From: Smithellaceae bacterium
GTDB lineage: Bacteria; Desulfobacterota; Syntrophia; Syntrophales; Smithellaceae
Direction: 5' to 3'
Length of the DNA: 61,858 nt
NCBI GenBank assembly: GCA_030690945.1
Contig: JAUYFM010000059.1
Coordinates: 1-61,858 of the forward strand
A program made the translations under genes and the position numbers. Positions 20,510 to 28,107 of this stretch are shown here, piece by piece. Below the pieces are notes generated by a model, which saw only the letters and a list, made by a program, of their open reading frames with translations, was not told the origin of the DNA and made no database searches. How positions within the stretch are numbered: the stretch's first letter is position 1; every line of letters starts with the position of its first letter.

Positions 20510-21535
20510 CTATTTTTTCCCGGCAGCTTCCTTCCGGACCCGATCCATCACTTCCTTGGTATAAGTTTTTTCATACTTCGAATCAGCCCAGATCTTGGCC
20601 GCAACTTCCTTCAGGTCGTTTACCAGTTCGGGTGTGGGTTCAATCACCTGCGTGCCGGCCTTGGCCATGGCCGCATAGTTCTTGCTGACGTTTTCGCGGT
20701 TCACTTTGACCTGGATGTCGGCTGCCTTCTTGGCGGCGTCGGCAACAATCTTCTGCTGATCCGGGGTCAGCTTGTCCCAGGCCTTTTTAGACATACACAT
20801 TTCCATCGCGGAGTAAATCTGCTGTGCCTTGGTGGCATATTTCTGGAACTGGTGGATGCCCAGGTCATACGTGATGATGGCGCCGTTGTCCTGACCATCG
20901 ACAGTCCCCTGCTGCAGGGCGGTAGTGAGTTCGGTGATGGCCATGGGGGTGGGAAGCACGCCCATCGCTTTATAGAAATCGATATACATGGGCACTTCCG
21001 GAACTCTCAGTTTCAAGCCTTTGAAATCCGCACCTTTGGTAATGGGTCTTTTGGAATTGGTCAGACCGCGGTAATCATTTTCACCGATGGCAAGAACCTT
21101 AACACCTTTCTCGTCCATATACTTGGTAACATACTGGCCAATCCAGCCATTGCGATATTTGGCGTCAACCTCGGCATAATTTTTAAACAGGTAGGGCAGA
21201 TTCACGAATCCCAACTCGGGGTAGACAGCCGCCAGACCGATGTCGGAACTCCAGGCCATATCCAGATCGCCACGCACGACGGCTTCCACCATCTGGCGCT
21301 CTCCGCCCATGACACCGCCGCCATGGATGGTTACCTTAATAGCGTCGTTTGTCTTAGACTCGATATCCTGTTTAAATGTTTTTGCAGCCACAGAATAGGA
21401 ATGCGTGGGTGATACAGTAAAGCCGACACGAATGGTCGTGGCAGCGTTTACGTCTCCTGGCTTGACCCCGGTGATGCCTGCGGCAAAAGCCAGTACCACC
21501 ATAACCACTAATGCTTTCAATATTTTACTCTTCAA
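20510..21535 (-). CDS. TRAP transporter substrate-binding protein (DctP-type)
   Basis: This 341-residue periplasmic protein begins with a signal peptide (residues 1-32, ending ...GVKPGDVNAA). DctP family segments follow: RVGFTVSPTHSYSVAAKTFKQDIE, GGERQMVEAV, GLKLRVPEVPMYIDFYKAMGVLPTPM and LTTALQQGTVDGQDN. The arginine in KLRVPE is the one that binds the substrate carboxylate in nearly all TRAP binding proteins, so the ligand should be an organic acid. The start is TTG at 21535 after AGGAGGG. It is first in the transport/degradation operon. Confidence 0.94.
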   Translation of the reverse strand: MKSKILKALVVMVVLAFAAGITGVKPGDVNAATTIRVGFTVSPTHSYSVAAKTFKQDIESKTNDAIKVTIHGGGVMGGERQMVEAVVRGDLDMAWSSDIGLAAVYPELGFVNLPYLFKNYAEVDAKYRNGWIGQYVTKYMDEKGVKVLAIGENDYRGLTNSKRPITKGADFKGLKLRVPEVPMYIDFYKAMGVLPTPMAITELTTALQQGTVDGQDNGAIITYDLGIHQFQKYATKAQQIYSAMEMCMSKKAWDKLTPDQQKIVADAAKKAADIQVKVNRENVSKNYAAMAKAGTQVIEPTPELVNDLKEVAAKIWADSKYEKTYTKEVMDRVRKEAAGKK

Positions 21536-21846
21536 AATACAGCCCTCCTATACATTTCTTTAAATGGTTTGGCGGAATGACGAAACATTTGATATGAGAT
21601 GCTGCCATTGCCGCAACGCGACTCTTTCCGTCGGGTACAGGAGAGAGTCAAAACTTACGCTATCGCTGAAACTCAATCCATCTTGATGATTTCCGCTTCT
21701 TCCTTGATGCAGAATACTAAGCGTCATCGGCCGGTCAGCTGATGACAATCGTTGAAAGACCGATCGATGGTGAAAGCGTAAACTACCGATCAGAAAAAGA
21801 CAATGTTAAAGATATATTATATTTATACTATATCTAATATAATATA
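21536..21846 (-). other. 311-base region upstream of the TRAP/dehydratase operon
   Basis: It lies between the PAS-LuxR gene and dctP, both on the minus strand, and should hold the operon promoter. The part nearest the regulator gene is very AT-rich and contains an inverted repeat, AGATATA (21810-21816) with TATATCT (21829-21835). This could be an operator or a weak end-of-gene structure. No RNA gene was seen. Confidence 0.4.
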
Positions 21847-23370
21847 CTAAAGGTATTGAGTGAGATGAGATTTCAGGTTGGCTTTTTGATTGTTCAGTCC
21901 CAGCTTGGTCCTTAACCGATACCGGTGCACATCAATCGCGCTTTTGGATACATTCATGATGTCGGCGATTTCTTTGCTGTTTTTACCTTCTTTGATAAAG
22001 TTGGCAATCTGAATTTCTTTAGGCGTGAGATTCATATATTTTGAAGAAAGTTTTCGGGAAAACGGGGCAATGATGTCTTTCAGATTAGATTCAAGGATGC
22101 CGAGATAGGCCATAGATTTTTCGTCCACTTTGCCATTGCGAGTTTTTTCCACATAGGGGAGAACGAATTCTTTCACATTGGTGAGCACCTTTTCTTCGAG
22201 TTCTTCCCGGTCCTTCTCACGTTGCTTCAGCAGGACTCTCAAGGCTGTGTTTAATTCCTCGAGATTGAGGGATTTGATCTGCAATTCCTGTTCTCTGTTT
22301 TTTAACCCCTGCTCTGCCTCTTTCCATGCGGTGATGTCCGTGAATGAGACTACGCTTTTTTTGGTTCCCGGAATTATGTCTGCCGTCAGGAACATGTTTC
22401 TGATTTTGCCCCCGCTGTCAATTAAGTCGTGTTCAAAATTCCGGGGTGCGGCATTACGGTCAAGTCGTCTGAGCCGATGGGTTTTTTTCATACGCACGAG
22501 ATCTTTTTCAGGAATATACTCCGGCCACTTCTTCTTCCCTTCCCACTCTGCCCTGCGATATCCTGTCATATTTTCAAATTCAGAATTGAGCAGCGATATG
22601 GTCATATCATCCTCGATAATGATGGTTGCCGTCCCCGTTGTTTCAAAAATAGCGCGATAGAGATTATCGGATTCCTGCAATTTATTCTCGACGATCTTTC
22701 GCTTCGTAATGTTTATGAAATTTCCCAAGATCGCCGGTTTCCCTTGAAATATAGTGGATGTGACCGTTTCCATAATCCAGCAAATATTTTGCTGCTTTGT
22801 GATAATTCTGAACTCATAAGGAGATAAACGTTTGCCGCCGAGCATGTCCCCTGCATTTCTCTTTACGTTATCCAGGTCTGCGGGGAAGATCATACTGTCG
22901 GAATTTTTCCCAATAAGTTCCTTCAAGCTAAAACCTGTAAATGACACCGCAAGGGGACTGACGGCCTGAAAAATTCCATTCTGCGAGATATAAATGCCAG
23001 CCAGAGAACTTTCCCATATCGTTTTGTAAATATGCGCATTCCCTGCGATTGAGTGTTTCAGCTCTTCCCCTTGGCGGCTTCCCTCTTCGAGAGAGCGATT
23101 GCCTTTATTTCCTTCAAAGTTCTGAGCGGAACCGGTCTGCTCTGCCGTGGCCCGGACGTTGCTATTTTCTCCGGTGGAAATATTCAGCAGATTCTTTCCG
23201 GCAAACCGGGAGAGGGATCGGATGATGGTCTCTATATTACCGTTTGCCTGAAGTTCGTCCATTCGGCCGATAGTGGCGACAACCCGCTGGCTGATTTTTT
23301 TATTGTCCCGCCGGTTTTCGACGAGTTGGAGATATTCGTTGCGGCCTGACTTTTTGATTCGTGCAAACAT
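21847..23370 (-). CDS. PAS-PAS-LuxR regulator with a transposase-derived N-terminus
   Basis: The start is ATG 23370, six bases after AAGGAG; a GTG seven codons upstream overlaps the ribosome-binding site. The product is 507 residues. Residues 1-60 (MFARIKKSGRNEYLQLVENR, SQRVVATIGRMDELQANG, RSLSRFAGKNLL) match the N-terminus of IS1634/IS4-type transposases. Two PAS/PAC domains follow (about 110-230 and 235-360), then a coiled coil and a LuxR helix-turn-helix (LTPKEIQIANFIKEGKNSKEIADIM). It lies directly upstream of the TRAP/dehydratase operon on the same strand, so is the likely activator of that operon. The transposase part lacks any catalytic DDE core. Confidence 0.85.
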   Translation of the reverse strand: MFARIKKSGRNEYLQLVENRRDNKKISQRVVATIGRMDELQANGNIETIIRSLSRFAGKNLLNISTGENSNVRATAEQTGSAQNFEGNKGNRSLEEGSRQGEELKHSIAGNAHIYKTIWESSLAGIYISQNGIFQAVSPLAVSFTGFSLKELIGKNSDSMIFPADLDNVKRNAGDMLGGKRLSPYEFRIITKQQNICWIMETVTSTIFQGKPAILGNFINITKRKIVENKLQESDNLYRAIFETTGTATIIIEDDMTISLLNSEFENMTGYRRAEWEGKKKWPEYIPEKDLVRMKKTHRLRRLDRNAAPRNFEHDLIDSGGKIRNMFLTADIIPGTKKSVVSFTDITAWKEAEQGLKNREQELQIKSLNLEELNTALRVLLKQREKDREELEEKVLTNVKEFVLPYVEKTRNGKVDEKSMAYLGILESNLKDIIAPFSRKLSSKYMNLTPKEIQIANFIKEGKNSKEIADIMNVSKSAIDVHRYRLRTKLGLNNQKANLKSHLTQYL

Positions 23371-23502
23371 AAAGGTCTCCTTAAAGGACACTCAATATTT
23401 TCACAATATTCATTAATATGTCAAGCATTATATGCTCTAAAAGTGGCACTACTCTTCAACGATCTGAGTGGAACCGATCTTCTTTTCCTTGACCTGGTAT
23501 AT

Positions 23503-24681
23503 TTAATGGTGGAACAGTCTCAGTCCGCAAAAGGCCATGGCGATACCGTATTTGTTGCAGGTATCAATCACCTGCTGGTCGCGGATGGAACCGCCGGCCT
23601 CGACAATGGCGGTCACACCGCTGCGGTGCGCGCGTTCAATGTTGTCGCCGAAGGGGAAGAACGCGTCGCTGCCGAGGGCGACACCGGTGACCTTGGCAAG
23701 CCACGCCTTCTTCTCGGCCGCAGTCAAAGGCTCGGGCCGCCGGGTAAAGGTTTCGGTCCAAACGTCCTCGCCAATGGCGTCTTCCGGGGTATCGCCTAGG
23801 TAAACGTCGATGGCATTATCGCGGTTGGGTTTGGCAACATCGTCGCGGAAAGGCAGAGCCAGCACCTTGGGCATATGGCGCAGCTGCCAGTTGTCGGCCT
23901 TCTGGCCGGCCAGACGTGTGCAGTGGATGCGGCTCTGCTGACCGGCGCCCACGCCGATGACCTGGCCGTCCTGCACGTAGCAGACGCTGTTGGATTGCGT
24001 GTATTTCAGGGTGATCAGAGCGAGCACCAGGTCGCGCTTCTGCGCGTCCGTCAGGGTTTTATTCTTAGTCACCATGTTTTCCAGCATGCGGTTATCAATC
24101 TTCAGATCATTGCGGCCCTGCTCGAAGGTAATGCCATAAACCTGCTTGTGCTCCAGCGAGACGGGGACATAGTTGGTGTCGATGGAGACCACGTTGTAAT
24201 TGCCGCCTTTTTTGGATTTCAGAATTTCCAGAGCTTCCGGTTCATAGCCGGGAGCGATGATGCCGTCGGTGACTTCATTTTTGATGATCTTCGCCGTGGG
24301 CACATCGCACACGTCGGAAAGCGCAATCCAGTCACCAAAGCTGCTCATGCGATCGGCGCCGCGGGCGCGCGCATAGGCGCAGGCAAGCCCCGATAACTGC
24401 ATGCCGGCGTCGATGTGATACATCTTGCGCAGGACGTCGTCTAAAGGATAGCCCAAGGCCGCACCGGCGGGAGAGACATGTTTAAAGGAGGCCGCGGCAA
24501 CCATGCCGGTATTCTCTTTGAGCTCTTTCACCATCTGCCAGCTGTTTAAGGCATCCAAAAAGTTGATGTAGCCGGGCTTGCCGTTTAATACTTGAACAGG
24601 CAGATTGCTGCCGTCCGCCATAAAGATTCTGGCGGGCTTCTGGTTGGGGTTGCAGCCGTATTTAAGGGCTAATTCGATCAT
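23503..24681 (-). CDS. purH: Stand-alone AICAR formyltransferase (PurH C-terminal domain type)
   Basis: This 392-residue protein corresponds only to the formyltransferase half of PurH. It carries the active-site SFKHVSPAGAA motif, LKYTQSNSVCYVQDGQVIGVGAGQQSR, and the terminal DAFFPFGDNIERAHRSGVTAIVEAGGSIRDQQVI block. It transfers a formyl group from 10-formyltetrahydrofolate to AICAR, making FAICAR. The IMP cyclohydrolase half is absent and is supplied by the separate upstream gene four bases away. Its length and motifs indicate a complete enzyme, not a truncation. Confidence 0.9.
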   Translation of the reverse strand: MIELALKYGCNPNQKPARIFMADGSNLPVQVLNGKPGYINFLDALNSWQMVKELKENTGMVAAASFKHVSPAGAALGYPLDDVLRKMYHIDAGMQLSGLACAYARARGADRMSSFGDWIALSDVCDVPTAKIIKNEVTDGIIAPGYEPEALEILKSKKGGNYNVVSIDTNYVPVSLEHKQVYGITFEQGRNDLKIDNRMLENMVTKNKTLTDAQKRDLVLALITLKYTQSNSVCYVQDGQVIGVGAGQQSRIHCTRLAGQKADNWQLRHMPKVLALPFRDDVAKPNRDNAIDVYLGDTPEDAIGEDVWTETFTRRPEPLTAAEKKAWLAKVTGVALGSDAFFPFGDNIERAHRSGVTAIVEAGGSIRDQQVIDTCNKYGIAMAFCGLRLFHH

Positions 24682-24684
24682 TGA

Positions 24685-25416
24685 TTATTCCTCCACTGCT
24701 TTATATTTGTTGATGATGACGTCTTCGTAGCCTCCGGTCTTAAGATCGATGGCGCGCACAAACAGACTCACTTTATTGTCCTCGTTCAGGGCTTCCCACA
24801 ATTTGCCTGCATATTCATTGGGATTTTCCTCGTCGATGGTGACACGAATAGGCTCGCCCGTAAAACTGGGAATCGGGTTGCCGTTGCACTTGTAGGTACT
24901 GATAAAGTGACCAACGCCTGCCAGGGGCTCTGAATATTCGAAGGTAAAGCGCTGCACACTCTTCTCATCGCCATTGTCGCTCTTCAAAATACTTAGCTTG
25001 TAACCGCCTGCGCGCATATCCACCACACCGGAAATGCGGGGCGTCCAGTTGGGTCCGTCGTCCTCAAAGGTACGGGTTTTCAGCGCTGCTTCAAAATTGA
25101 AGCCAGGAAAACTGTTTTGGGCCATAAAATCGTAGATGGTATTAGTCTGGTCGCCGTTAGTCACAATCGTCGTGTTTCCCATAGTCAGCACGGGGTTGTA
25201 AATAATCAGGTGCGGGTCCGTCATTTTGGAAGGGTCGGCAGCCAGGGTGCGGATGCCACCGTCAATGGGGTCAAACACACGGTTACGGCTGTTGACGCTG
25301 CGGCCCATGATAAAGTAGGCAATCATGGCTTTCTTGCCGCTAGGTTCTTTCCCGATGCATATGCCGCGGCCCGGATACTCGTTGCCGGCCAGATATTCGT
25401 ATAAATTCTGTTTCAT
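24685..25416 (-). CDS. purO: IMP cyclohydrolase, PurO (archaeal) family
   Basis: This 243-residue protein has the PurO-type pattern: LAGNEYPGRGICIG, AYFIMGRSVNSRNRVF, DPHLIIYNPV, VTNGDQTNTI, TPRISGVVD. PurO closes the ring of FAICAR to give IMP, the last step of purine synthesis. It was first described in archaea and is unrelated to the PurH cyclohydrolase domain. The ATG follows AAGGAG. The gene runs straight into the formyltransferase gene, so the two replace one bifunctional PurH. Confidence 0.85.
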   Translation of the reverse strand: MKQNLYEYLAGNEYPGRGICIGKEPSGKKAMIAYFIMGRSVNSRNRVFDPIDGGIRTLAADPSKMTDPHLIIYNPVLTMGNTTIVTNGDQTNTIYDFMAQNSFPGFNFEAALKTRTFEDDGPNWTPRISGVVDMRAGGYKLSILKSDNGDEKSVQRFTFEYSEPLAGVGHFISTYKCNGNPIPSFTGEPIRVTIDEENPNEYAGKLWEALNEDNKVSLFVRAIDLKTGGYEDVIINKYKAVEE

Positions 25417-25568
25417 TTTCTACTTCTCTCCTTGTTATGGATAAGGCATCAATTTTTTTGTTGTGGGAGTATATGAAGAGAAGATTCATATGTCAACTGG
25501 ATTTGGGTGAAATATTGATTTTCACAACAAAAAGTGAGTGTTGATGGCACACTTCAGCCTCGCGCCCT

Positions 25569-27148: not shown

Positions 27149-27264
27149 AACAAAGCTTTCTCTTTTAATCCAAAATCTTATGAATATGCCTGTACAGTTT
27201 TAGTTGACAGACAAGTCCGAAATTCCTATACTACTTCCATGAAAAATAAGAAGGTTTGTTCTCC

Positions 27265-28107
27265 ATGACATTGGCAAAAAATAATTTAAAGTCGAGCAGA
27301 ACAATGAAACTTAAACAATCCTTGAGGAATCTCTTCCATCCCAGACAGCCGTCCAGTCGAAAGGGCACGCCCCTTGAGCGCGTCATGCGGTTATCCGTAT
27401 TGCTCCTTTTCGCAAGTACTTCCGCGATGGCCGCATCTGATAGTGAAATCGCGAGAAAATATATGGCGGAGTACCCTACAGTCCATAAGACCGTAGCGAA
27501 AGAATCCGACAGCGAAATCGCCCGGAAGTACATGGCCGAACATCCGCTGCCGGTCATAGAAAAGCCCGCTGTCATCGCACCCGCGGTGGATCGGCCGGCG
27601 CCTATTGTAAAAAAGCCCGTTGTCGCCACACCTGACGGTGACGTCGCCAGGGTCAAGACCTTCACAGGAACAGCATCGATTGTGAGGGCAAATAAAGCGC
27701 TCCCCGTGAACAGGAATGCGAAGCTCTATCAGGGCGACACCTTAAGGACCGGCAAGGACGGATCGCTTGGTATCATTTTCCGGGACAACACCCTCCTGTC
27801 GCTCGGTCCAAACAGTGCCTTGATCATTGAGGAATTTCTCTTCTCTCCGGCCCAGGGAAAGCTTTCCATTGTGACCAGGATGCTCAAAGGCACGGCGGCC
27901 TATCTTTCCGGCGTGATTGCGAAACTCTCCCCCAAGTCGGTGCGGTTTCTCACCCCTGTGGGCAATGTGGGTTTTCGTGGGACAAAGTTCCTCGTAAGAA
28001 TTGATGAAGAGGAACCACCCGATACAAAACCTCTCGAAGGGAATGATAAAAAAATATCAAACGGACCCAAGCCTATTCTGGTGGGTGATGCGGAGGAAAA
28101 GCCATGA
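27265..28107 (+). CDS. Exported FecR-domain protein
   Basis: The product is about 280 residues. ATG 27265 is preferred; 27304 is also possible, and the TTG at 27256 is unlikely. An N-terminal basic stretch precedes a hydrophobic segment (VMRLSVLLLFASTSAMAAS), probably a signal peptide or anchor. Two near-identical 13-residue repeats follow (SDSEIARKYMAEY and SDSEIARKYMAEH), then a proline-rich linker and a FecR domain (GTASIVRANKALPVNRNAKL, GDTLRTGKDGSLGIIFRDNT, LTPVGNVGFRGTKF). FecR domains in this setting are periplasmic sensors or scaffold proteins. The gene is translationally coupled (ATGA) to the OmpA-type lipoprotein. Confidence 0.82.
   Translation: MTLAKNNLKSSRTMKLKQSLRNLFHPRQPSSRKGTPLERVMRLSVLLLFASTSAMAASDSEIARKYMAEYPTVHKTVAKESDSEIARKYMAEHPLPVIEKPAVIAPAVDRPAPIVKKPVVATPDGDVARVKTFTGTASIVRANKALPVNRNAKLYQGDTLRTGKDGSLGIIFRDNTLLSLGPNSALIIEEFLFSPAQGKLSIVTRMLKGTAAYLSGVIAKLSPKSVRFLTPVGNVGFRGTKFLVRIDEEEPPDTKPLEGNDKKISNGPKPILVGDAEEKP

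Follow-up and report, generated by a model that had tools for sequence, protein, structure and literature searches.

The chimeric regulator gene and its surroundings

The window, that is, the whole stretch of DNA analysed, comprises 61,858 nucleotides from a Smithellaceae bacterium. Its minus strand carries a gene for a 507-aa protein in which the start of a transposase is joined to a sensory regulator. The features of the locus are collected in Table 1. The frame runs from an ATG at 23370 to a stop codon at 21849-21847, and a GTG located seven codons 5' of this ATG is an alternative start that would give a protein of 514 aa. The earlier note had read everything beyond the first 60 residues as a sensory LuxR regulator, and the family searches agree with it. 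Residues 125-355 hold PAS sensor domains, matched in two stretches by TIGR00229 (NCBIfam, E 6.6e-35), and residues 447-495 form a C-terminal GerE helix-turn-helix (Pfam, PF00196, E 7.2e-12); both are traits of LuxR-type regulators. No DDE family was found for the 507-aa protein among the Pfam matches or the best 25 of 30 NCBIfam matches.

The AAGGAG that the earlier note had placed just 5' of the transposase-like methionine was found at 23382..23377. A methionine codon further inside the gene, ATG37, has no visible ribosome-binding site. As no in-frame ATG, GTG or TTG occurs between codons 37 and 142 (149 in G304, the second genome with the fusion), the IS-derived start is very probably the one used for translation of the regulator.

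Table 1. Positions of the features of the fusion locus in the window
Feature	Position	Strand	Basis or remark
TRAP substrate-binding protein gene (dctP), downstream	20510..21535	-	
Complete chimeric regulator gene, 507 aa	21847..23370	-	ORF reading; full-length counterpart in G304
LuxR-type HTH, residues 447-495	21886..22032	-	PF00196, E 7.2e-12 (GerE)
PAS domain 2, residues 232-355	22306..22677	-	TIGR00229 stretch
PAS domain 1, residues 125-223	22702..22998	-	PF13426 stretch
Junction, codons 87-94	23089..23112	-	Between end of IS homology and start of unfused-regulator homology
Codons 1-86, transposase N-terminal segment	23113..23370	-	Predicted domain, residues 1-64
IS1634-family DNA, left part of the element (codons 1-86 with RBS, leader, promoter region and box)	23114..23456	-	blastn against L062
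AAGGAG RBS from the IS	23377..23382	-	Compared with IS leaders
Captured sigma-70-type promoter (candidate), TTGACA - 16 - GAAAAT, TG before second hexamer	23397..23424	-	Consensus match
Subterminal IS box GTAGTGCCA, starting 82 bp upstream of the ATG	23444..23452	-	One exact copy in the window
AICAR-transformylase-like gene, upstream, other edge of the locus	23503..24681	-	Presumed name

After dctP, on the same strand, follow genes for DctQ, DctM, a CoA-transferase and a dehydratase. These names, and that of the TRAP substrate-binding protein, are presumed from reading the sequence rather than from a family search. The position of the gene suggests that the regulator would be the activator of this TRAP operon. 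No tRNA was found in the window. Elsewhere in the window, the ORF at 27256-28107 contains SDSEIARKYMAE twice in its N-terminal part.

The earlier note had asked whether the same fusion recurs beside the TRAP operon in a related genome, and this is the case in G304. There the gene is intact (84% aa identity over residues 1-507), has the same junction and occupies the corresponding locus, flanked by the AICAR-transformylase-like gene and dctP. Both species thus have an unbroken reading frame that joins a transposase-derived segment to a host domain. The fusion was found in 2 of the 20 genomes of the genus (2 of 12 when genomes below 90% completeness or above 5% contamination are set aside), and DctP at E 1e-60 was found in 3 of the 20. 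Genome G309 has the same neighbours and keeps the TRAP and dehydratase genes, with no intact regulator. Its intergenic region (L093 7424-7792) holds a 40-nt piece of the 3' part of the regulator, identical to G304 at 36 of 40 positions, as well as weaker short matches. Judging from these traces, G309 probably lost the gene. The regulator would be dispensable in G309, since the TRAP and dehydratase genes are kept there with remnants of the regulator only. G309 further contains another dctP copy and an apparent two-gene CoA-transferase.

Origin of the 5' part and position of the junction

The claim that the first 60 or so residues resemble a transposase was borne out: over residues 1-76 the fusion shares 79% identity with the N-terminus of L062, a 550-aa transposase. 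L062 is one and the same copy as that on contig C59 of G533, which belongs to the order of the source genome. Two of the IS transposases were tested with NCBIfam, and both belong to IS1634 (NF033559; L062 at E 5e-115 and L065 at E 9e-116). In L062 (172-1821), the IS1634 model matches from residue 27, and the first 26 residues lie outside the matched part. DDE_Tnp_1 was found in all three transposase-like ORFs scanned with Pfam. The homology is also seen at the DNA level, where blastn aligned 23456..23114 with L062 DNA (258 of 345 columns identical, 75%, E 5e-61). The aligned stretch covers the box, the TTGACA promoter region, the leader with the RBS and codons 1-86, and the TTGACA of the fusion is aligned with that of L062. 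The earlier note had proposed that an insertion sequence donated a ribosome-binding site and an N-terminal segment. This part stands, and the donated stretch is longer than assumed: it comprises codons 1-86 plus 86 bp upstream, including the promoter region.

The module was then followed through other genomes. Residues 1-76 were matched in 17 of 297 genomes of the phylum, the source genome included, at 27 places besides that in the window. Eight of these lie in frames of 402-581 aa, and the best match (64% identical) is in a frame of 581 aa; the remaining places are in frames that are short or interrupted, in some cases at the end of a contig. A scan of species genomes with residues 1-76 gave 28 loci, one of which (L061) is the G304 fusion. 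Among the other 27, six run into a contig end after 18-123 residues (L081, L083, L085-L088), and the frame of L066 stops after 129 residues. Scans of 395 phylum genomes and of 155 genomes from the order gave 34 and 23 matches, respectively. The loci whose frames were read (10, 16 besides L062 and L132, and 10) were all judged by eye to be IS1634 transposases or pieces of them, and no other fusion of the module to a non-transposase was seen in the loci read. On plasmids, 22 records match the module at 34-48% identity. Fourteen of them are annotated as IS1634 or IS1634-like transposases; one of the eight without this label, H22 ('hypothetical protein'), was read and proved to be a short IS1634-like start. 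In records whose titles name several phyla, and also on plasmids, the module forms the front end of IS1634 transposases. In a FastTree tree of 28 rows, two of them identical, both fusions group with L062 among the IS1634 sequences (support 0.985). Two residues in columns 69-70 are common to the fusion and L062 and absent in 19 of 20 other IS rows; the twentieth, L077, carries one of the two.

No end of the element was found at the fusion locus, and the transposase body is absent. A search of 23457-23503, upstream of the box, for a remnant of the left terminal inverted repeat gave nothing above shuffles. The repeat word had 13 matches in the window against 15.3 expected, and no terminal inverted repeats were found. 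A shortened IS1634 remnant was noticed in G516 (L135 1402-1706). It has the left terminal repeat and the GTAGTGCCA box, after which the codons begin at about number 13, and looks like an internally deleted element.

The box was examined in 35 IS copies, namely the 27 loci of the species-genome scan other than L061 and 8 of the 27 loci outside the window from the 297-genome scan. With one mismatch allowed, GTAGTGCCA is present at the left end in 30 of the 34 copies with at least 80 nt upstream (18 exact), some of these copies being near duplicates and not independent events. It starts at -80 to -89 in 28 copies and is missing in L071, L080, L082 and L084. A right-end box in the same orientation follows the stop codon in 15 of 17 complete copies; it is missing in L082 and in L078, where little sequence is left. 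In both fusion species, the box is exact at -82. We guess that it is a site for the transposase. In the window, the single exact copy is accompanied by few near matches (2 with at most one mismatch, 6.2 expected). Additional copies serving as operators were considered and rejected, there being no second exact copy and fewer matches than expected; for the same reason of the single exact copy, the box by itself does not explain control of the operon. Box and TTGACA are found together at this single place in the source genome. The centre of the box lies about 58 bp upstream of the transcription start deduced from the promoter-like pair. A sigma-70 consensus scan found 3 matches against 3.4 expected by chance, so there is no excess, and the promoter stretch 23397..23424 shows no difference between the source genome and G304.

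Homologues of the 507-aa protein at E 1e-20 or better occur in 89 of 99 related genomes. Among the matches listed, only those in the source genome and G304 align from residue 1. The next best, unfused homologues (51-54% identity) align from residue 94 to 112 and, where read, have a short N-terminus of their own before PAS 1. In G365, a weaker match begins at residue 52, is loosely aligned before about residue 94 and crosses a stop codon, and a search of G365 with residues 1-94 alone found nothing. The junction was placed between codons 87 and 94 because the IS homology ends and the homology to unfused regulators begins there. At the codon positions where the unfused homologues begin, no start codon is left in the fusion. 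The junction DNA was also compared with the leaders of two unfused genes, L031 and L032; this candidate homology was rejected, as the alignments were short and gapped, and 13 and 49 of 1000 shuffles, respectively, gave local scores as high.

Taken together, the DNA homology, the grouping with L062 and the absence of this N-terminus from unfused homologues agree with the donation proposed earlier. Neither of the findings that would have spoken against it, a lack of similarity of residues 1-65 to transposases or an unrelated N-terminus aligned here in all close homologues of the regulator, was obtained. A transposon origin of the regulator's start is well supported by these comparisons. An IS1634 element would have come to adjoin a PAS-PAS-LuxR regulator gene in the same orientation. 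The transposase body would then have been deleted, along with the IS ends and the regulator's own start, the order of the steps being our reconstruction. Such an insertion with deletions accounts for the anatomy of the fused gene. It is highly probable that the gene would now be expressed from the IS promoter and ATG, every regulator molecule carrying the module. We regard it as very likely that both hold together, the IS1634 origin of the fused 5' part and expression from the IS start.

Divergence, predicted structure and possible roles of the captured segment

The captured segment differs little between the two fusion genes. In the comparison of the source genome (G000) with G304, codons 1-62 differ at one synonymous and one non-synonymous site (dS 0.023). 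The dS is 0.13 for codons 63-86, 0.62 for codons 87-507 (dN/dS 0.16) and 0.475 for the upstream gene. In 20,000 random draws of 62 codons, no value as low as that of codons 1-62 came up. At the nucleotide level, there are 2 differences in the 268 nt from 23433 to 23166. Only 1 of 4,465 stretches of this size in 20.7-25.5 kb has two differences or fewer, and 89 of 13,411 overlapping ones do in the better conserved flank at 25.5-39.4 kb, where blastn blocks are about 94-95% identical. Blocks of this kind are therefore rare, though they do occur. The region 20700-25510 is more divergent between G000 and G304 (81-88% in blastn blocks) than 25.9-39.4 kb (94-95%), and the fusion locus looks mosaic. 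Two other causes of the low dS were rejected. IS1634 5' ends in general do not share it: among the closest IS pairs, dS of codons 1-62 is not lowered in any regular way, being above the rest in some pairs and below it in others, e.g., L064/L066 and L080/L084. RNA structure was unsupported (z -0.64). The low dS of codons 1-62, a comparison of two sequences, may reflect recombination or constraint.

In the comparison of the fusion with L062, dN is 0.11 and dS 0.97 for codons 1-62, and dN is 0.36 and dS 0.78 for codons 63-86 (Fisher p 0.039 for the contrast, on rounded counts). This is weak evidence of relaxed selection in residues 63-86, because the loop there varies in the IS too.

The earlier note had suggested predicting the structure of the N-terminus. 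The AlphaFold2 model of residues 1-64, built with 22 rows (mean pLDDT 87.5, pTM 0.66), shows a three-stranded sheet (strands 2-8, 11-22 and 25-36) and helices (37-42 and 45-63); the mean pLDDT of the model of residues 1-86 was 75. Fold searches with both models gave no significant match (best Foldseek E 1.0, best VIA Z 3.9). In a comparison with arm-type integrase DNA-binding domains, 3rmp_C ranked first in Foldseek at E 1.0, and 3jtz gave Z 3.2 and an rmsd of 3.7 over 54 aligned residues. Many of the weak rows are nucleic-acid-binding proteins, which is uninformative at that score level. With residues 1-76 alone, no Pfam or NCBIfam family was matched up to E 1, and no PHROGs match was better than E 0.02. 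No relative was found in the viral_contigs scan with a 23-row alignment, and a PDB sequence search gave one match, to an HTH. Residues 1-62 contain 13 K/R and 6 D/E.

We lean towards the view that residues 1-64 have remained a folded domain, maintained because it has a function. Our preferred guess, a tentative one, is that the module may bind nucleic acid. The regulator bearing it would act through the GTAGTGCCA box as an autoregulator, beside control of the neighbouring operon by its LuxR HTH. It is rather doubtful that one capture moved a complete circuit, i.e., a promoter, an operator-like box and the module recognising it, to give a regulator with two DNA-binding domains that controls itself via a transposon end.

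About as likely as DNA binding with autoregulation is a passive role, in which the IS contributed just a promoter and a start codon when the regulator's own start was lost, and the 86 residues are idle and tolerated. IS promoters are well known to switch on neighbouring genes, a point in favour of a passive role. ATG1 is the sole plausible start, so the segment could not be lost without loss of expression, and the low dS of the block could come from recombination. Conservation speaks against idleness: in residues 1-56, both fusions keep 23 of the 23 columns conserved in at least 90% of 26 IS rows, and codons 1-62 have a single amino-acid change between the species. In residues 57-86, there are 3 such columns, of which 2 are kept and P81 is lost.

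A less likely role, and in our view an improbable one, is oligomerisation or protein interaction, by which the module would alter the assembly of the LuxR regulator with no DNA contact. The predicted sheet with helices would suit it, as would the place of the module before PAS 1, where unfused homologues have their short N-terminus, but the basic composition and the kept box favour nucleic-acid binding, if weakly. An assembly chimera or sequencing artefact might be suspected from two many-contig drafts (69 contigs in the source genome, about 90 in G304) and is made very improbable by an identical junction in the genomes of two species with substitutions on both sides. The reverse direction, a domain ancestral in regulators and acquired by IS1634, is hardly credible: no point in its support was found, and against it stand the extension of the homology over the IS promoter region and box, the presence of the module at the start of IS1634 transposases across several-phyla records and plasmids, and, among the matches listed for the 99 genomes, its restriction in regulators to the two fusion genomes.

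Comparison with known systems

The fusion shares codons 1-86, the promoter region, the RBS and the subterminal box with the IS1634 transposase family (NF033559). It differs from the family in having neither a detected DDE domain nor a terminal inverted repeat, and in being joined to a regulator. Its PAS and GerE parts resemble the PAS-PAS-LuxR regulators of the same order (on contig C44 of the same genome and in G302, G361 and G271; 51-54%), whereas these align from fusion residue 94-110 and, where read, have a short N-terminus of their own. Contig C44 also carries a 172-aa transporter ORF (L094 2997-3515) with a start and an end like those of a 459-aa transporter in L095, which looks like an internal in-frame deletion.

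No earlier report of a bacterial transposase-LuxR fusion was found among the records listed from the open literature searched. Transcription factors that arose by transposase capture are best known from animals. Transposase capture itself is a known phenomenon, met here in a bacterium. Among bacterial proteins, TldR descended from TnpB. In the available text of PMC13418256, TldR proteins are described as RNA-guided transcription factors of bacteria; they resemble the fusion as transposon-associated bacterial proteins turned into transcription regulators, and differ in being RNA-guided and in having, as far as that text goes, neither a DDE transposase segment nor such a domain fusion.

The IS1634 family is poorly characterized; a sliding-clamp motif is reported at the C-terminus (PMC4549789, in part), and the DNA ends are described as poorly conserved (PMC2266710, in part). 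The available text of these two sources contains no statement on the IS1634 N-terminal segment. The present finding points to a subterminal box in this poorly characterized family (PMC4549789). It is a bacterial capture in which the donor type, the junction, the promoter region and a candidate operator are all visible at the DNA level, and it would open such a capture to in vitro tests using a module of 64 residues and a DNA fragment of 130 bp.

The eukaryotic host-transposase fusion SETMAR, in the part of PMC8327481 available, binds remnants of its own transposon's ends. It is alike in that a transposase part is joined to a host domain; by comparison, the fusion described here is bacterial, has the N-terminal segment alone, has captured the IS promoter region and start, and is known from its sequence. 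ADF-1L, derived from PIF/harbinger, is reported to act on its own and an adjacent gene (PMC11893794, in part). In the portion of that source available, it is not bacterial and has no LuxR fusion, and in the case of our fusion autoregulation is a hypothesis. If the circuit reading is true, the regulator would be a bacterial counterpart of the transcription factors that arose by transposase capture.
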